From Psychrilyobacter sp. (lineage in GTDB: Bacteria; Fusobacteriota; Fusobacteriia; Fusobacteriales; Fusobacteriaceae): a stretch of DNA of 11,873 nucleotides. A program made the position numbers and the translations under genes. The notes below the pieces were generated by a model, which saw nothing but the letters and a program-made list of their open reading frames with translations, did no database searches and was not told the DNA's origin. Positions 3,870 through 10,078 of this stretch are shown piece by piece. Location: assembly GCA_030621995.1 (NCBI GenBank), contig JAUXGP010000025.1:1-11873 (forward strand), given 5' to 3'. Within the stretch, counting starts at the first letter, position 1. Each line of letters starts with the position of its first letter.

Positions 3870-4559
3870 CTACATGAATAAATATATAAATATCGGAATA
3901 AATGGAGCCAAACTAAGATTTGCAACTTTTATCTTTGCTACTCCTAAGATATTAAATCCGATTGCCATAATTACAAGTGATCCTACACATGTTATTTCAT
4001 CAATAACAACTGCTGATAGAAAGGGGGAAAGAGTTCCCGCAAATAAAACTATTGCACCCTCATAGAATAAGATCAAAAATGCTGAGAAAAACACACCTAT
4101 TCCCATTGTTGCTGACATTGCAATGACTACAAACAGGTCTATAAATGCCTTTGCATATAATACCTCATGGTTGCCTACAAGCCCGCTTTGAAGTGAACCC
4201 ACTATTGCCATTGCTCCGACACAAATTACCATTGTAGCGTTTAGAAATCCTTCTACCAATGACTCTTTTTCATCTGTATTTGACTTGAATTTAGCTTCCA
4301 TAGCAAATCCAAATTTTCTGAGTCTGCCATCTATATCGATTAATTCACCGACAATGCCTCCTAAAGCTATTGAGCCTATTGCTACCAGTATGTTTTGTCC
4401 TTTCAAGGAACCTGATATTCCAATGTACAGGACACACAGCCCCATACCACTCATAACAGTATCAATTAGCTTTTTATTGAATTTATTTCTGAAGAAAACT
4501 CCCAATAAAGACCCGAAGCCCACTGCAACGGAATTTACGATTACACCACTTAATATCAT
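3870..4559 (-). CDS. DUF554 family membrane protein (YqgA/YdfK-like)
   Basis: This is an inner-membrane protein of unknown function. It has 229 residues, the usual DUF554 length. The family layout is visible: an N-terminal helix (MILSGVIVNSVAVGFGSLLG), then a Gly-rich pair of helices, the motif GGIVGELIDID near 67-77, a charged loop near 80-103, and four further hydrophobic segments ending in the typical NLSLAPFIPIFI. The ATG at 4559 is preceded by GGAGG (4567-4571) at 7 nt. It has its own promoter. A weak hairpin (GCAG/CTGC then TTAGTTTTTA on the minus strand, about 3835-3860) may be the terminator. It is the first chromosomal gene beyond the stranded ssrA 3' end. Confidence 0.88.
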   Translation of the reverse strand: MILSGVIVNSVAVGFGSLLGVFFRNKFNKKLIDTVMSGMGLCVLYIGISGSLKGQNILVAIGSIALGGIVGELIDIDGRLRKFGFAMEAKFKSNTDEKESLVEGFLNATMVICVGAMAIVGSLQSGLVGNHEVLYAKAFIDLFVVIAMSATMGIGVFFSAFLILFYEGAIVLFAGTLSPFLSAVVIDEITCVGSLVIMAIGFNILGVAKIKVANLSLAPFIPIFIYLFM

Positions 4560-4641: not shown

Positions 4642-4685
4642 TAAAAAAATAAAATAGAGAGCTAAGGTTTCCCCCTAGCTCTCTA
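4642..4685 (-). terminator. Intrinsic terminator beside the stranded ssrA 3' end
   Basis: A 10-bp stem (TAGAGAGCTA 4655-4664 with TAGCTCTCTA 4676-4685) is followed on the minus strand by a T-rich tail, ATTTTATTTTTTTAG. It directs termination of minus-strand transcripts. The nearest upstream minus-strand gene, rocD, already has its own terminator, so this is best read as the original ssrA terminator left behind when the accessory segment inserted. Confidence 0.75.
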
Positions 4686-4686
4686 C

Positions 4687-4747
4687 TATTTGAAACTCCT
4701 ACAAAATTCTAGAACATTTGCAGTCGTGTATTTGTTGGTGGAAGTGA
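4687..4747. repeat. Direct repeat copy A: displaced ssrA 3' end (att-like)
   Basis: These 61 bp match 9682-9742 at 57 positions with no gaps. The right end reproduces the last 12 nt of mature tmRNA including CCA (minus strand TCACTTCCACCA); the rest matches the tmRNA 3' flank. To the right, similarity stops abruptly: the tmRNA T-arm is absent. This is the expected shape of an attachment-site copy at the distal end of an element integrated in ssrA. Confidence 0.8.
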
Positions 4748-4810
4748 TTCACCACTAACCTACCCCTCTACTATAAACTTCTGTTCTTTCCTTTGTTTTA
4801 TCATTTGTAC

Positions 4811-4841
4811 AAGAAAAAAACTTAAGCCGAAGCTTAAGTTT
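4811..4841 (-). terminator. rocD terminator with UUCG tetraloop
   Basis: A perfect 10-bp stem, AAACTTAAGC/GCTTAAGTTT on the minus strand, closes the very stable loop TTCG and runs into TTTTTTTCTT. Its first base overlaps the rocD stop codon. Confidence 0.9.
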
Positions 4842-6025
4842 CATGACAATACTTTCTTTAATTTATCTATACATACATCTAATTCTTCCTTTTTAATTAC
4901 TAAAGGTGGTGCTAAACGAATTGTAAACTCGTGTGTTTCTTTACAAAGAATACCTTCATTCATTAAAGCTTCGCAGAATGGTCTTGCTGGTTTATCTAGT
5001 TCAACACCAACAAACAAACCTTTACCTCGCACTTCTTTAATATGTTCCGAATCTATCTTCTTCAATTCAGCTAATAGATAGTCTCCTAATTCTTTAGATT
5101 TTTCTACTAAGTTTTCATCTTCTAGAACATCTAATGCTGCCATAGCAACCGCACATCCTAATGGATTACCTCCAAATGTTGATCCATGGTCACCTGGTCT
5201 AAATACATCCATCACTTCTTTTGATGATAGCATTGCAGATACCGGATACAATCCACCACTTAAAGCTTTACCTACTGTTACAACGTCTGGTCTAATATTT
5301 TCGTGTTCGAAGGCAAAAAGCTTTCCAGTTCTACCAAAGCCAGTTTGAATTTCATCACAGACCATTAAAACATTATTGGCTTTTGTAATTTCTCTTACAC
5401 CTTTTAAGTACCCTTCAGGTGGTACAATAATACCGGCTTCACCTTGAATTGGTTCCATAATTACAGCGACGGTATTGTCTGTGATAGCGTCTTCTAATGC
5501 TTTTAAATCACCAAAAGGAACAGTTTTGAAACCTGGTGTAAAAGGTCCAAAGCCCTCTCTATATTGATCTTCTGTTGAAAAAGAAATTGTACTGATTGTT
5601 CTACCAGCAAAGTTATTTTGACAGGCAATGATTTCAGCACGTTCAACACCTTTCACTTGATAACCCCATTTTCGAACAGCTTTTAGAGCAGTCTCAACTG
5701 CTTCTGCGCCTGTATTCATTGGTAAAACCTTTTCAAAACCTGTAAATTCACATAACTTCTTTACGTAAGCACCCATCTTGTCATTGTGAAAAGCTCTTGA
5801 AGTCAATGGCATTTTTTGAGCTTGGTCAATAAGCGCTGAAACTATTTTGGGGTGTCTATGCCCCTGATTTACTGCCGAATATGCTGCTAACATATCCATA
5901 TACTTATTGCCTTCTACATCAGTTACCCAGATGCCTTCGCCTTCTGCAATAACAATGGGAATTGGATGATAATTATGAGCACTCCACTTTTCAACTTCAT
6001 CAATCATAATTTTTGTTTTAGACAT
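4841..6025 (-). CDS. rocD: Ornithine aminotransferase
   Basis: This cytoplasmic PLP enzyme converts ornithine and 2-oxoglutarate to glutamate semialdehyde and glutamate, linking arginine/ornithine breakdown to proline and glutamate. The 394-residue product follows Bacillus RocD closely. Visible landmarks are NNYHPIP-like HNYHPIPIVI at the N-terminus, YSAVNQGHRHPKI, the phosphate-binding NTGAEAVE near 104-111, DEIQTGFGRTGK from Asp224, Lys253 in TVGKALSGG as the Schiff-base lysine, and GSTFGGNPL near 281-289. The ATG at 6025 has AAGGAGG at 6033-6039, 7 nt away. An in-frame ATG at 6049 would sit upstream of that ribosome site and add eight residues, so it is not used. The gene lies inside the ssrA-bounded segment but looks intact and functional. 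Confidence 0.93.
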   Translation of the reverse strand: MSKTKIMIDEVEKWSAHNYHPIPIVIAEGEGIWVTDVEGNKYMDMLAAYSAVNQGHRHPKIVSALIDQAQKMPLTSRAFHNDKMGAYVKKLCEFTGFEKVLPMNTGAEAVETALKAVRKWGYQVKGVERAEIIACQNNFAGRTISTISFSTEDQYREGFGPFTPGFKTVPFGDLKALEDAITDNTVAVIMEPIQGEAGIIVPPEGYLKGVREITKANNVLMVCDEIQTGFGRTGKLFAFEHENIRPDVVTVGKALSGGLYPVSAMLSSKEVMDVFRPGDHGSTFGGNPLGCAVAMAALDVLEDENLVEKSKELGDYLLAELKKIDSEHIKEVRGKGLFVGVELDKPARPFCEALMNEGILCKETHEFTIRLAPPLVIKKEELDVCIDKLKKVLS

Positions 6026-6050
6026 GATATAACCTCCTTCATCTTTCATG

Positions 6051-6090
6051 TGTATATATTTTTATGCATATATGCGTATATTTTTATACA
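6051..6090. promoter_or_regulatory. 40-bp imperfect dyad upstream of rocD, candidate operator
   Basis: The block is symmetric about 6070.5: TGTATA (6051-6056) mirrors TATACA (6085-6090), with a perfect GCATATATGC core (6066-6075); 15 of 20 mirrored positions pair. TATATTTTTAT also occurs twice, 22 bp apart. It begins 25 bp upstream of the rocD start. A related half-site, TATGCATATGAA, occurs at 6145-6156. An arginine-repressor-type (ARG box) operator would suit an ornithine catabolic gene, but that identity is inference. Confidence 0.4.
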
Positions 6091-6109
6091 ACAATGTATT
6101 TCAATGAGT

Positions 6110-6139
6110 TTATCATAATTTTTACTCACTGTCTATAAT
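6110..6139 (+). promoter_or_regulatory. Candidate promoter for the antirepressor fragment
   Basis: TTATCA (6110-6115), an 18-bp spacer and a perfect TATAAT (6134-6139) precede the plus-strand KilA-C ORF. The -35 is weak and the region is AT-rich, so a chance match is possible. Confidence 0.35.
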
Positions 6140-6204
6140 TATTTTATGCATATGAATTTTTTAAGTTCTTTGTTACACTGAATTTGAAAGGAGCGATGCA
6201 TAGT

Positions 6205-6474
6205 ATGATAGCATTCGCTGAGAGTGTAGGTGAGTGTGCCAGTTTGATTTCTATTAATGATTTTGCTAAGACTACTTATGGTACTTTTAGATTAGGGCAA
6301 AAGAAGCTATTTCAAGAAATGAGATATAATGGTATTCTTAGTAGTCAAAATAGACCTTATCAGTGTTATATTAAGGCAGGGTATTTTCAAGTGGTAACTA
6401 GAGTTATCAATGGAAGGATTATATATCTACAGGAAATTTATAATAGATTAGGAATTCAAGCAAATTCACTCTAA
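6205..6474 (+). pseudogene. Phage antirepressor KilA-C domain fragment, copy 1
   Basis: The 89-residue ORF matches only the C-terminal DNA-binding (KilA-C/ANT) domain of phage antirepressors. The run SINDFAKTTYGTFRLGQKKLF, read in two pieces SINDFAK and GQKKLF, then NGILSSQNRPYQCYIKAGYF, fits the family pattern of dfAK...iGqkkLf..lr.nGyL...n.pyq.yi..g.F. The N-terminal Bro/ANT half expected of a full antirepressor is missing. Compared with copy 2 it also lacks about 11 codons that include the conserved TGKG. GGAG at 6190-6193 favours the ATG at 6205; ATG 6196 and TTG 6184 are too close to it or overlap it. It could still be expressed as a small protein. Confidence 0.65.
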
Positions 6475-6533
6475 TTCTTAGTAATTTTTAAAGGGATAAG
6501 TTGATACTAAAAGATAATTAATTGGAGGAAGTT

Positions 6534-6812
6534 ATGGTCAGAAGAAATATTATTGCGGATTTTAAATTTAAAGTATTTCTTGAAGCTTTTAATTATTTAG
6601 GAAAATATAGCAATTAAAAAGTGTAAAAAAAGGTTAAAATTTTGAAAAAATCAGAAAAAAAGGTTAAAATAGTTTTAACAGAATATTTTAAGAAAAAATT
6701 AGAAAAATTTGGAATTGAATTTAATGTAGCACCCAGCCAGATATCCAGGTGGACCAAAGAGCTTAAGGATAAAGTATTTTTTCAAAAGATAAAAATAACT
6801 CTTACAATATAG
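6534..6812 (+). pseudogene. Interrupted IS3-family orfA remnant
   Basis: The left piece starts with ATG at 6534 after GGAGGA and reads MVRRNIIADFKFKVFLEAF before diverging and stopping at 6617. This is the classic IS3 OrfA N-terminus (RRxYSxEFKxKVxLEA). After about 120 nt of A-rich DNA the helix-turn-helix end of OrfA resumes as EFNVAPSQISRWTKELKDK, ending at TAG 6812. A normal OrfA has only about a dozen residues between these blocks. No orfB or terminal inverted repeats were found. Confidence 0.6.
6625..6670 (+). repeat. Tandem 16-nt repeat inside the orfA remnant
   Basis: AAAAAAAGGTTAAAAT occurs exactly at 6625-6640 and 6655-6670, 30 bp apart. A third, 12-nt match (AAAGGTTAAAAT) lies at 7780-7791. 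The second copy runs into a 17-bp dyad, GTTAAAA-TAG-TTTTAAC (6663-6679). Confidence 0.6.
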
Positions 6813-6829
6813 ATCAAAGGGGGAAGACT

Positions 6830-7204
6830 ATGGATCAAAAGTTTTTGAAACACGAAATGGAAAACTATAAGAAGGAACAGGAAAAAATAAAACAACTCAT
6901 CGGAAGTATAGGAGCTACTCACAGTAGCAGAAACCACAAGATCTTTAACGGACTTTTTCTTTTGTTTGTTATTCTTTCATTCTTTGCAGGGGGAGTTTTA
7001 CACTATATCCCATTCAATCTTTCCATAGAGTTGGGAGTGCTACTAGTTTCCATAAAGATAGCATGGATGATCCACGAACAGCAGAAAGTTAACCACTTTC
7101 AGTTCTGGATATTAAACTCCATAGAGTTAAGGTTAAATTCTCTTCAAACAAACTTCAGGAAGATGGATAAGGAACTTAAAAAGCAGGGAGAGGAGAGAAA
7201 ATAA
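6830..7204 (+). CDS. Small two-helix membrane protein, unknown function
   Basis: This 124-residue protein belongs to no family I can name. Residues 1-37 are highly charged and likely helical (KHEMENYKKEQEKIKQLI). Two hydrophobic segments follow, about 39-58 and 67-81, joined by a short HYIPFN turn, so both ends probably face the cytoplasm. The C-terminal tail (about 82-124) is again charged and helical (KMDKELKKQGEERK). AAAGGGGG at 6816-6823 sits 6 nt before the ATG, a strong ribosome site. Unlike the debris around it, this frame is intact and of balanced composition, which argues that it is maintained. It lies between the orfA remnant and a strong hairpin. Confidence 0.65.
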   Translation: MDQKFLKHEMENYKKEQEKIKQLIGSIGATHSSRNHKIFNGLFLLFVILSFFAGGVLHYIPFNLSIELGVLLVSIKIAWMIHEQQKVNHFQFWILNSIELRLNSLQTNFRKMDKELKKQGEERK

Positions 7205-7321
7205 ATACAGCAAAAATGAACGTTTTTATCAGACACGGTAAACTGGTATTGTATCAAGTTCTTTAAGACTCATATATCATAGATTGTAAATTACTGTAAT
7301 TAAACGGCTATTTATATACTT

Positions 7322-7366
7322 AAAACGTCCACTAGGAAGACAAATTGTCTTCTCAGTGGACGTTTT
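7322..7366. terminator. Long hairpin, probable terminator of the membrane-protein gene
   Basis: Arms AAAACGTCCACT (7322-7333) and AGTGGACGTTTT (7355-7366) are exact complements and continue inward through GAAGACA/TGTCTTC with one mismatch and one wobble pair. Only four Ts follow on each strand, so termination efficiency is uncertain. Confidence 0.55.
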
Positions 7367-7472
7367 GTCAACTGGGTACACAAATCTAAAAATGTGCTCT
7401 CTAGCCCAATAGTACCAATGGTTTCGTGACCTTCTTATTTAATGTATTTCAATAGTAGAGGTGTAATCACAA

Positions 7473-7512
7473 GGGGGAATTTTTAGGAGGGCTTAGGAGG
7501 GGAATGAGGGGG
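7473..7512 (+). other. G-rich tract with G-quadruplex potential
   Basis: Four G-runs of 5, 3, 4 and 5 bases (7473-7477, 7489-7491, 7499-7502, 7508-7512) are separated by loops of 11, 7 and 5 nt. It stands out in DNA this AT-rich. The runs also create AGGAGG-like ribosome-site matches, but no ORF follows closely. Confidence 0.45.
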
Positions 7513-7555
7513 TACTTTTGAAGTGAAAGATGAAAATTAATGTAGGGGGGAATTC

Positions 7556-7642
7556 ATGAATTACCCGTATGTTAAAGTATTAGATATAATTTGTATCTAT
7601 GGATTAAAAGTCAAAAGAAGGTTCCAAAGATTCCGCCTTTGA
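7556..7642 (+). CDS. Possible 28-residue peptide
   Basis: ATG at 7556 follows AGGGGGG (7544-7550) at 5 nt. The product starts MNYPYVKVLDIICIYG and ends in a basic tail (KVKRRFQRFRL). The first half is hydrophobic and the second strongly positive. No homology is recognised. The strong ribosome site may be a by-product of the local G-rich sequence. Confidence 0.25.
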   Translation: MNYPYVKVLDIICIYGLKVKRRFQRFRL

Positions 7643-7852
7643 TACGGGTTACTTTTTCTCTTGAAAGAAAAACTAACGAAAAAGTTCAAGAAGGTTTATA
7701 TGTTGTCTTAGTGAGTAAGTCACGATCGTCATTGTAGGAACAGTACTGCTGAAGTGGAACGACTATAAACTTCAGGAGGAAAGGTTAAAATAAATTTTTT
7801 TAAATTTGTGTAATCTGTGACAAAAAAAGAGAATTTGGGTAATTTTTGAATT

Positions 7853-8104
7853 GTAGTTTCCATTAATGATTTTGCTAAGACTACTTATGGTACTCTTGGA
7901 TTAGGACAAAAGAAACTATTTCAAGTAATGAGCTTTAATGGTATTCTTAGTAGTCAAAATAGGCCTTATCAGTGTTATATTAAGGCGGGGTATTTTCAAG
8001 TGATCACTAGAGTTATCAATGGAAGGGTTATACATCAGCCTATGTTGACTGGGAAAGGTGAGATTTGGTTATTCAAAAGGATGAAAAAGATATTAGGAAT
8101 ATAG
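7853..8104 (+). pseudogene. Phage antirepressor KilA-C domain fragment, copy 2 (5' truncated)
   Basis: The frame opens right after a TGA and has no start codon at its head, then reads VVSINDFAKTTYGTLGLGQ and on to a proper KilA-C end containing MLTGKGEIWLFKRMKKILGI. From 7862 it aligns without gaps to copy 1 at an offset of 1609 bp until near 8033. Copy 2 keeps the TGKG segment that copy 1 lost, while copy 1 keeps a usable start that copy 2 lost. Neither is a full antirepressor. Confidence 0.65.
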
Positions 8105-8107
8105 AAA

Positions 8108-8136
8108 AAGCACATAGGATTGATTTCCTATGTGCT
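8108..8136. terminator. Intrinsic terminator, likely bidirectional
   Basis: A perfect 12-bp stem, AAGCACATAGGA (8108-8119) with TCCTATGTGCTT (8126-8136 and the preceding base), has a 6-nt loop. The minus-strand exit is TTTTTC, so it can end HEPN-gene transcripts; the plus-strand tail is weaker. Nothing recognisable lies between it and the HEPN stop at 8281. Confidence 0.7.
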
Positions 8137-8280
8137 TCTACTTTACTTCATTCTACATCAATTTGAAGATTTACACTAAATTTGAGAACCCCTTTCTATT
8201 CTATAGAGCCTGTTGGTTTGATCAGTAATTAAGTTTTGGAAGAATACATAAAAGGCATTATATTACTCAAAAATAAGTAC

Positions 8281-9573
8281 TTATTGATTTGGTTCACTTT
8301 CTGCGAGTAAAGAGTCCGGCTCTTCTCCTGCTTCTTCATAAAGTTTTCTCATACCTCTTTTCCAATTTTCATCTGCTAACTTTTCTTTTAATGTTACTAC
8401 TGTTCTATTTGGAGAATATGTATACTTTGTAACTTTTATTATCTCTTTTAATAACTCTGGCGATTTGGTTTTTTCTAACAAATAGAATATGAAACTATTA
8501 TGCTTATTCCATATATTGTAATCATACCAGCAGTAAACTTTAGAGTTTAAGAACACTTCTAATATTCCATTATCTCCTAAAATTTTAAATTCAATTTCAC
8601 TTAAGCTTGTATGAATTAGATAGTTTGCAACTTCTTTTTTAAATTCTTCTTTATCATCTTCTATTATAAAGTTATTATTCAGTAATAAAGAAACTAATTC
8701 ACACAATTTATTCCTCTGAATTTCACTTAATTCCTGTTTCCATAACTTTAGTATTAGACTATCTGAAATATTTAATTCTACTAAGCTTTGAATATTTCTT
8801 TCTAAGAAAAATACTATACTTTCTTTTGAATTAAGATATTTTTCAATTCCATTTTTTATATTTTCTTCTTCTAAGCTAAGTAAATAATGTAATATATCTG
8901 ACATCTCTTCCTTATACAGAAACCAATGAAATTTCCCTTCTCCTAATAGAAGTTCTAATGCTAAAATTACTTCTTCCGCATCATTTTCATTTTTTACCTC
9001 TTGACTTATTTTTTTTAATATTTCTTTAACTCTTTGGTCTTCTATTTTGATATTTAGTTCTATGTAGTCACCTATTTTTTTTAATAAAGTTTCTCTACTT
9101 CCATACATATTTATTTTTTTATAGTTCGATTTAATAAAGCTCCAAAAAGATTCTATATGTGAGCTTGTTATCTGATTTTTCTTATAATGAGCACAATCGT
9201 TTCTTCTATCTCTCCAATACTCTAATTCTCTCCTTAAAGAGCCAGACAGATCAAAAACTTTTTTCTTTATCGTTCCTGTCCCATTTGGAATTTCAAAATC
9301 TTCTTGAGTTAATACTTCAAAAGTATTCCTATCCCACTCATCTTCTTTTAATATATTTTCTTGAATTTTTCTCCATGTACTATCTAAAACTTCATCTGGT
9401 CTTTCTGCAACTATAACTTTGTTTTTTATACTTTCTAAAAAAGCTAAATATGACATTATAAGAGAAGCTCTATAAGCTCCTGCCTTATAACAAACTATAC
9501 TTTCTTTATAAAGTTCTAAACTTTCTTTTGTTAAATTCTCTGTTTCCATATATTTTTCAAAACCTAATTTCAT
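8281..9573 (-). CDS. HEPN-domain protein, candidate RNase/defence gene
   Basis: This is a 430-residue, probably soluble protein. Residues about 15-55 form a helix typical of HEPN proteins (SLELYKESIVCYKAGAYRAS), and residues 123-129 read RRNDCAH, containing the exact HEPN catalytic pattern R-N-x3-H (Arg124, Asn125, His129). The rest (about 160-430) is predicted mostly helical and charged, with no motif I recognise; it may sense a trigger or bind a partner. ATG at 9573 follows AGGGGGGAG. It has its own near-consensus promoter and lies immediately downstream of the tmRNA terminator on the same strand. HEPN domains occur in toxins, abortive-infection proteins and Cas RNases, so an RNA-cutting defence role is plausible. 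No nucleotidyltransferase antitoxin (MNT) partner is adjacent. Confidence 0.65.
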   Translation of the reverse strand: MKLGFEKYMETENLTKESLELYKESIVCYKAGAYRASLIMSYLAFLESIKNKVIVAERPDEVLDSTWRKIQENILKEDEWDRNTFEVLTQEDFEIPNGTGTIKKKVFDLSGSLRRELEYWRDRRNDCAHYKKNQITSSHIESFWSFIKSNYKKINMYGSRETLLKKIGDYIELNIKIEDQRVKEILKKISQEVKNENDAEEVILALELLLGEGKFHWFLYKEEMSDILHYLLSLEEENIKNGIEKYLNSKESIVFFLERNIQSLVELNISDSLILKLWKQELSEIQRNKLCELVSLLLNNNFIIEDDKEEFKKEVANYLIHTSLSEIEFKILGDNGILEVFLNSKVYCWYDYNIWNKHNSFIFYLLEKTKSPELLKEIIKVTKYTYSPNRTVVTLKEKLADENWKRGMRKLYEEAGEEPDSLLAESEPNQ

Positions 9574-9606
9574 TTCTCCCCCCTATAATTATTCATTCCA
9601 CTAATG

Positions 9607-9635
9607 ATTATACTCTTCTAAAAAAAAGAAGTCAA
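9607..9635 (-). promoter_or_regulatory. Near-consensus sigma70 promoter for the HEPN gene
   Basis: On the minus strand TTGACT (9635-9630), exactly 17 bp, then TATAAT (9612-9607): eleven of twelve consensus bases. It lies 34 nt upstream of the start codon. It is the strongest promoter match in the window. Confidence 0.8.
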
Positions 9636-9642
9636 AGAAGTA

Positions 9643-9676
9643 TATAAAAAAGGAGTTAGACAATTGTCTAACCCCT
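9643..9676 (-). terminator. Terminator of the current ssrA gene
   Basis: A stem of about 11-12 bp (AGGAGTTAGACA 9651-9662 with TGTCTAACCCCT 9665-9676, one wobble pair) is followed on the minus strand by TTTTTTATA. It lies inside the accessory segment and differs in sequence from the terminator at 4642-4685. Confidence 0.85.
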
Positions 9677-9681
9677 TTCTC

Positions 9682-9742
9682 TATTTAAAACTCCTACAAA
9701 TTTCTAGAACATTTGCAGTCGTGGATTTTTTGGTGGAAGTGA
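9682..9742. repeat. Direct repeat copy B: intact ssrA 3' end and flank
   Basis: This is the partner of 4687-4747, offset 4995 bp. The four mismatches are at 9687, 9701, 9724 and 9729, all in the flank; the 12 nt within mature tmRNA are identical. Confidence 0.8.
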
Positions 9743-10078
9743 CGGGAATTGAACCCGTGTCCAAGAACACCAGTATTATAGGTTTCTACAAGTTTATTTC
9801 GTGAATTAGTCTCATATAAACTCGTCTCACAAACAGAACCAGTCTATACCAGTCAATTAAAGATGTCCCGCAGGTTTAATGACGAAACCATTGGTAAGCC
9901 TGATGTTAATTATATTCTACCGACCTGCACAGGCCTTAGGAAGGTAGAACACGCTGCACTATTAGGCAGCTATTGCGTAATTTTCGTTTCCATTTAAAAA
10001 AATGGTTTGACCTCTCACAGCGATCAACCTGACTTGCTTCCTATAACCTGATGCCCCTGTCGAAACCAGTGCACTCCC
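9731..10078 (-). ncRNA. ssrA: tmRNA (transfer-messenger RNA)
   Basis: This 348-nt RNA rescues stalled ribosomes with SmpB and tags the nascent peptide for proteolysis. The 5' end GGGAGTGCACTGGTTTCGAC is the canonical tmRNA start and pairs with the 3' end CACTTCCACCA; the encoded CCA ends at 9731. The T-arm reads GGGTTCAATTCCC. The tag frame is GGA AAC GAA AAT TAC GCA ATA GCT GCC TAA at 9962-9991, giving GNENYAIAA after the tRNA-donated alanine. The mature 5' end is 34 nt from the smpB stop, so the RNA is probably cut from a smpB-ssrA transcript or from a promoter within the end of smpB; RNase P would trim the 5' end. Confidence 0.95.

Follow-up and report, generated by a model that had tools for sequence, protein, structure and literature searches.

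CcrB-type recombinases move antibiotic-resistance cassettes in staphylococci, where the staphylococcal cassette chromosome (SCC) consists of islands that carry cargo and follow one another behind a conserved gene, at its 3' end, the target being rlmH. In Dehalococcoides, 31 islands specific for ssrA, the gene of the transfer-messenger RNA (tmRNA), have been described. They insert in the T-loop, are arranged in tandem and are bounded by 20-bp repeats of the ssrA 3' end. Their integrase, DsiB, is CcrB-like, of about 540 aa, and its gene always overlaps attL; the recombinase module is absent from 15 of the 31 islands, the motif upstream of the repeats is unlike ssrA, and CRISPR modules occur in the cargo (as described by McMurdie et al. 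2011, PMC3146451). Here, the region behind ssrA was characterized in a contig of a marine Psychrilyobacter sp., analysed at its whole length of 11.9 kb (the window) and belonging to a genome (G000) that is 76% complete and in 311 contigs. This region is probably a decayed, composite island at the ssrA 3' end, derived from islands inserted by a CcrB/DsiB-like serine recombinase.

The window contained a single complete ssrA, and no second tmRNA was detected in it by ARAGORN or Rfam. The initial annotation, made from the DNA letters, had claimed that the tmRNA 3' end and its flank are duplicated without the remaining tmRNA, and this was borne out. The two copies of a direct repeat (Table 1), copy 1 at ssrA and copy 2 at a start-to-start distance of 4995 nt, are identical at 58 of 62 nt (BLAST E value of 2.2e-20, search in the own genome). 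The repeat comprises 12 nt of the tmRNA 3' end and 50 nt of the downstream trailer. The identity past the RNA end, noted there as unusual, recurs in the G031 insertion and is thus a trait of this family of sites. The window lacks an integrase, as already noted in that annotation: matches to PF00589 in G000 lie only on other contigs, and PF07508 gave no match in this genome.

A comparison of an empty and an occupied site was obtained in a neighbouring genus. In G038 (empty), ssrA and its trailer are followed by a metallo-beta-lactamase-like gene (named by eye). In G031 (occupied), ssrA and a near-identical trailer are followed by 18,973 nt up to the next core, a site with the A arm defined below, and then the G038 flank. 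Divergence between both genomes starts at the left edge of TCACTTCCACCA. On the right flank, the first 1067 nt counted from the core match without exception (1067/1067), and a further 4621 nt show 99.9% identity. The two ends of the G031 insert have 68 nt in common from the core (66 identical, the initial 52 exact) and are immediately different left of the core. As judged from these alignments, the pair shows a site-specific insertion at the ssrA core. For the window itself no exact empty site was found: the expected arrangement, ssrA running straight into the terminator at 4642-4685, was not seen, and in G006, which has the ssrA site only, orf124, orf56, a GNAT gene and an EamA gene lie between ssrA and the DUF554 gene.

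The islands of G031 and G011 encode serine recombinases of 549 and 548 aa, respectively, with Resolvase, Recombinase and zinc-ribbon domains. They match CcrB (E values of 1.4e-55 and 5.3e-48) but miss its equivalog cut-off widely (164 and 189 versus 900 bits). No other recombinase was detected by Pfam in 16 of the 17 open reading frames (ORFs) of at least 90 aa of the G031 insert, nor in 18 of the 19 such ORFs in the G011 island, counted as far as the site on the side of the large serine recombinase. Four more relatives, with 39-41% identity, were found in 80 genomes, and their frames and the ssrA 3' end overlap by 79 nt (G047) or 22 nt (G075, G026 and G035). A profile search of 98 genomes of the phylum retrieved seven members of this close group with E < 1e-200 (next best 3e-58), including G090 as the addition; the profile had been built from five of the first six recombinases, and thus from five of these seven. 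Six of the seven are located in ssrA islands, four overlapping the ssrA 3' end and two at 14-16 kb behind ssrA; the G090 recombinase has no tmRNA within 1.5 kb. Among the weaker large serine recombinase loci of the same search, tmRNA was present in 0 of 11. A CcrB-like large serine recombinase is, on these comparisons, the likely enzyme for the sites, and we infer both its action on them and the exact crossover base.

Tyrosine integrases are usual at tRNA and tmRNA genes, and a tyrosine recombinase had been named as the agent in the initial annotation. Tyrosine recombinases are present in 8 of 8 genomes of the genus, and the long common core would fit them. Nevertheless, none was found among the scanned ORFs of the G031 insert and the G011 island or on the window contig, and these two fuller islands carry the CcrB-like serine enzyme, which makes it very unlikely that a tyrosine integrase produced the insertions. 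In G006, a tyrosine recombinase (PF00589) lying 13 kb upstream of ssrA was considered as the integrase and rejected; it is probably a housekeeping Xer, because it lies between recN- and era-like ORFs (identified by eye).

Two additional observations were made on recombinase loci. Four of the 11 other large serine recombinase loci have a tRNA gene nearby, an uncommon target for these enzymes: L227 (G038), L230 (G007), L233 (G002) and L231 (G083), with three tRNA-Leu and one tRNA-Arg. At L218 (G035), a MobA/MobL relaxase is situated behind ssrA and the recombinase, together with conjugation-like ORFs recognized by eye, which suggests that some islands may be conjugative or mobilizable.

Additional copies of the repeat were detected by BLAST in four genomes of the same genus. 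A sequence-only model (R1) was constructed from 12 copies outside ssrA, all from same-genus sites, and its search of 51 genomes yielded 27 copies outside ssrA, distributed over 9 of these genomes (E < 1e-3, under the stricter filters of the search tool). Twelve of the 27, copy 2 of the window among them, are the training copies, and 15 are new. The ssrA tails also match R1. G031, outside the 51-genome set, adds two sites (E values of 2.3e-15 and 3.4e-13); a G011 site gave 5.8e-15, and the outermost G011 site just 1.3e-5. Ten of the 27 sites share a contig with ssrA and lie downstream of it; G005 has four extra sites in series after ssrA.

When the sites were aligned at TCACTTCCACCA, the left arm was either the tmRNA T-arm (T) or a 25-nt A arm near AGTCGTGAGTCAGGTTAGTGGTGCT, and the right arm was ACAAATCCACGACTGCAAA-like (P') or AAAATAATTTTCTTATAAC-like (B'). 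Each of the four possible pairings of a left with a right arm is present among 26 sites, which were hand-picked, with the arm consensuses typed from the same sites and degenerate ones (e.g., L115:15516 and L106:11157) excluded. T.B' was found at ssrA of G007, G002 and G005; T.P' at ssrA of the window, G006, G003, G031, G038, G020 and G011; A.P' at copy 2 and others; and A.B' at two G005 sites. In the window, copy 1 is T.P' and copy 2 is A.P'. The right arm of one G005 site is ambiguous (13 and 11 of 19), and the outermost G011 site fits no class well (A 12/25 and T 8/25; P' 11/19 and B' 8/19). The arms reassort freely at one point, which is the pattern expected from site-specific recombination. 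This reassortment, an A arm that is not ssrA sequence, and the site-specific insertion seen in G038/G031 argue against a mobile terminator or a copied ssrA tail spread without any integrase. The copies do follow genes and continue into terminator-like hairpins, and some keep the T-arm at loci other than ssrA; even so, we give hardly any weight to this explanation.

The presence of the sites on phages or plasmids was also assessed. The 91-nt site consensus had no match in 72,556 plasmid records and only six weak matches to Salmonella phages, which covered 36% of the query at E 0.8 and were attributed to chance. Two site patterns gave 0 matches in viral contigs, in which three relatives of the recombinase were 27-33% identical. 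Carriage of the site by phages or plasmids is thus not supported by the plasmid, phage and viral contig searches.

In the proposed mechanism, the ssrA 3' end would be the attachment site, and a CcrB/DsiB-like recombinase would cross over at or beside TCACTTCCACCA. By insertion, ssrA would acquire the right arm of the island (T.P') and the far end its 25-nt left arm (A.P' or A.B'); repeated gain and loss would give rise to tandem arrays. The window would be a decayed array in which copy 1 is attL-type, copy 2, now behind rocD, is attR-type, and the recombinase has gone. One of the presumed events would have placed the 430-aa gene and the ANT remnant beside ssrA, and another rocD and copy 2 beside DUF554. 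The earlier view of the ssrA 3' end as an integration target agrees with this scheme, in which the repeats are attL/attR-type sites and the locus is a hot spot.

On the other hand, the same annotation had treated the interval as one 4.9-kb element that entered at ssrA in a single insertion, with the two repeats as its ends. T.P' and A.P' are indeed the end pair expected of such an element, but it did not withstand comparison with relatives. Between the window sites lies orf124, which G007 and G002 also retain, together with a GNAT-like gene, in their ssrA-DUF554 interval; as it is conserved in the genus between ssrA and DUF554, a single insertion is unlikely to have brought it in as cargo. In G006, rocD lies behind a comM-like gene (Mg_chelatase domains) without a site. 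In G002 it is at the comM-like locus and does have a site, but the terminator hairpin present at the window copy is missing; in the window, rocD and its site adjoin the DUF554 terminator. From these positions, rocD plus its site appears to have an origin separate from the rest of the interval. A single element is quite unlikely, and the conserved genes between the sites indicate that two or more events contributed to the interval, so that the window is best interpreted as a decayed composite ssrA island whose two sites are presumably dead. Neither the window nor G000 has a CcrB-like large serine recombinase (PF07508 and relative searches), and the window was for this reason classed as a remnant and not as a full member of the DsiB/CcrB-like islands. 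The position of orf124 near smpB in Cetobacterium was dropped as proof of an ancestral ssrA neighbour, because no tmRNA is present at that locus.

The sites favour the 3' sides of genes. A same-strand ORF lies upstream of 24 of 29 sites, and within 200 nt of 19 of 29, in comparison with 942 and 470 of 1881 random intergenic points. In this count G003:C30 was omitted, G011:C29:23012 (E 0.0025) and the two G031 sites were included, and the controls were based on mechanical ORFs of at least 90 aa. This preference would suit an integron-like cassette system, in which single genes are followed by A-core-P' as a folding tag of the attC type and are moved in trans to land at ssrA. So would the outer arms AGTCGTGG/CCACGACT, complementary in several copies, the short segments between sites, with a 334-aa ORF in L106 and a nucleotidyltransferase/HEPN pair in L112, and the finding of rocD with a site at two places. 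Nevertheless, the arms swap inside the dyad and not at one end, the 19-kb insertion also uses the same core, and the single-strand folds are mostly weak; a conserved attC-like fold was rejected, as it was clear in few copies only (judged without a pair-count control). The integron integrase (TIGR02249) was over the cut-off in 0 of 41 genomes and in none of 14 control genomes, so this search had no positive control. An integron-like system of this kind is unlikely. A small but real chance is given to an integron-like capture by the CcrB-like serine recombinase itself, in which A-core-P' would be added behind ordinary genes and the resulting single-gene cassettes carried to the ssrA tail. The ordinary genes bearing this module are rocD, a NERD gene, nucleotidyltransferase/HEPN pairs and a Tmn-like ATPase.

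Several data weigh against the interpretation of the window as the remnant of CcrB/DsiB-like ssrA islands. Seventeen of the 27 sites are on other contigs or >1 Mb from ssrA (two of them in G016, a draft genome), some with a T-arm-like left arm, and the plain insertion of islands leaves the scattered sites behind ordinary genes unaccounted for. G006, G007 and G005 lack both the gene and the T-arm-like site found at recJ of G002, and their target has no such arm. With an internal site at L147:3529, the G031 insert may be two elements, and its 68-nt common core exceeds what a serine recombinase needs. No recombinase of the close group was found in eight same-genus genomes, four of them <90% complete, and membership of this group was assigned by scores. 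Finally, a wrong assembly join is possible in a 76%-complete genome of 311 contigs, with both rocD junctions near repeats.

Regarding the scattered loci, the G002 recJ locus was rejected as a clean insertion, since its right edge is blurred by about 30 nt that G004 and G002 have in common at this point. The empty-site scan at L163 gave one partial ortholog only, in G007. Genes in L106 (G006:C1, 6520-9858) are homologous to those of the G047 ssrA element (50% and 45% aa); at their end lies a site that includes 34 nt of the tmRNA 3' end, on a contig different from that of ssrA. A 119-aa ORF without Pfam match is located in L165 (G002:C12, 8765-9124), and several related stretches are present per genome.

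With respect to the cargo, labels correspond to family matches and the functions are predicted. Near the G005 sites we found a Ser/Thr kinase (best PADLOC matches mad6, PD-T4-6 and Stk2) and PDC-M46B, HKD+Snf2 and PIN_8 proteins; in G011, a similar kinase and LmuA/LmuB; and in G007, Tmn and a NERD protein. Nucleotidyltransferase/HEPN-type pairs lie by sites in G031, G002 and G020. Straight after ssrA, G020 has a 1092-aa Cas9 (L151, 16035-19313; HNH_4, RuvC_III and Cas9_RuvC), with Cas1- and Cas2-like ORFs identified by eye. Non-defence cargo in G031 includes a BCCT transporter, a membrane transporter and an acetyltransferase. The island cargo thus includes likely anti-phage defence genes. Further non-defence cargo is a microcompartment-like operon, recognized by eye, in G002 between ssrA and the first extra site (L111, 8356-20000).

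The features of the window are listed in Table 1. The HEPN gene announced for the interval exists as an ORF of 430 aa, but its label is weak: Pfam gave only a NUSAP match below the cut-off, and PADLOC gave no match. It has at least 25 homologues, the closest among the matches listed showing 78% (Psychrilyobacter) and 73% identity and the others ≤38%. The promoter-like leader TTGACT-17-TATAAT is also present after two G005 sites. Two KilAC/ANT stretches, 87% identical across 208 nt (6220-6427 and 7829-8036), are consistent with the phage debris that had been proposed, and no gene of an insertion sequence, the other debris claimed, was found among the six ORFs of the interval that were scanned. 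The two KilAC/ANT stretches lie on either side of orf56-orf124. The islands of G031, G011 and G020 also contain an ANT gene, which is antisense to ssrA.

Table 1. Coordinates of the genes and sequence features identified in the window
Feature	Position	Strand	Evidence
DUF554 gene, bordering the hot spot on the right in G006, G007, G002 and G011	3870..4559	-	Domain scan, relatives
Terminator upstream of DUF554, also present in G006	4642..4685	-	By eye; BLAST homology with G006 ends at the start of copy 2
Repeat copy 2, same 62 nt without tmRNA body; putative attR-type	4686..4747	-	R1 model E 2.7e-26 (copy 2 included in training, value not independent)
25-nt A left arm of copy 2	4748..4772	-	18/25 versus A consensus, 7/25 versus T-arm
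rocD, ornithine aminotransferase, before copy 2	4841..6049	-	TIGR01885 above cut-off
ANT (KilAC) stretch 1	6184..6474	+	PF03374 E 1.5e-12
orf56, same block as orf124, more diverged	6642..6812	+	Comparison with relatives
orf124, genus-conserved neighbour, probably not cargo	6830..7204	+	94-96% aa between ssrA and DUF554 in G006, G007 and G002
ANT (KilAC) stretch 2	7829..8036	+	Repeat comparison, domain scan
430-aa ORF, weakly HEPN/AbiV-like, candidate cargo behind ssrA	8281..9573	-	NCBIfam AbiV E = 0.01, below cut-off
Promoter-like TTGACT-17-TATAAT, between copy 1 and the 430-aa gene	9607..9635	-	11/12 matches; 1 found versus 0.6 expected in shuffles
Terminator-like hairpin directly past copy 1	9655..9672	.	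Computed for + strand; T run of - strand by eye
Repeat copy 1, terminal 12 nt of ssrA and 50 nt of trailer; putative attL-type, T-arm left, P' right	9681..9742	-	
ssrA (tmRNA), complete	9731..10078	-	ARAGORN and Rfam RF00023, 148.6 bits

No paper on ssrA genomic islands with direct repeats in Fusobacteriota was found in the open-licence papers searched. The G038/G031 pair provides a clean empty and occupied site, the half-site code of the arms is readable and directly testable, and the scattered sites behind single genes pose the testable question of how genes become cargo. The ssrA tail of Fusobacteriota would be a gathering place of defence-like genes (Lamassu-type, kinase, Cas9 and nucleotidyltransferase/HEPN).

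In comparison with integron arrays and CALIN, single genes are likewise tagged by a site and arranged in arrays; the differences are the swap point inside the dyad and the absence of an integrase over the cut-off in 41 genomes (search with no positive control). A CcrB-like recombinase is shared with SCC (CcrA/CcrB/CcrC), but the target here is ssrA, and the CcrB scores are 164 and 189 against the 900-bit cut-off. The Dehalococcoides islands were compared by the description given in the paper (PMC3146451). As described there, they resemble those reported here in the tandem arrangement behind ssrA, the 3'-end repeats, the CcrB-like recombinase and the non-ssrA upstream motif, as well as in a recombinase gene overlapping ssrA/attL (here in four genomes), in the existence of islands without recombinase and in CRISPR modules as part of the cargo. 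On the other hand, according to the same account, the Dehalococcoides repeat has 20 bp in the T-loop, whereas here it has 12 nt of the gene and at least 50 nt downstream; DsiB is encoded at attL, whereas the G031 and G011 recombinases lie toward the far end; sites are all within 100 kb of ssrA, whereas here they are also far from it; and the cargo includes reductive dehalogenases, whereas the cargo scanned here is often defence-like (PMC3146451). With these differences, the predicted islands extend the CcrB/DsiB-type ssrA islands from Dehalococcoides to Fusobacteriota.

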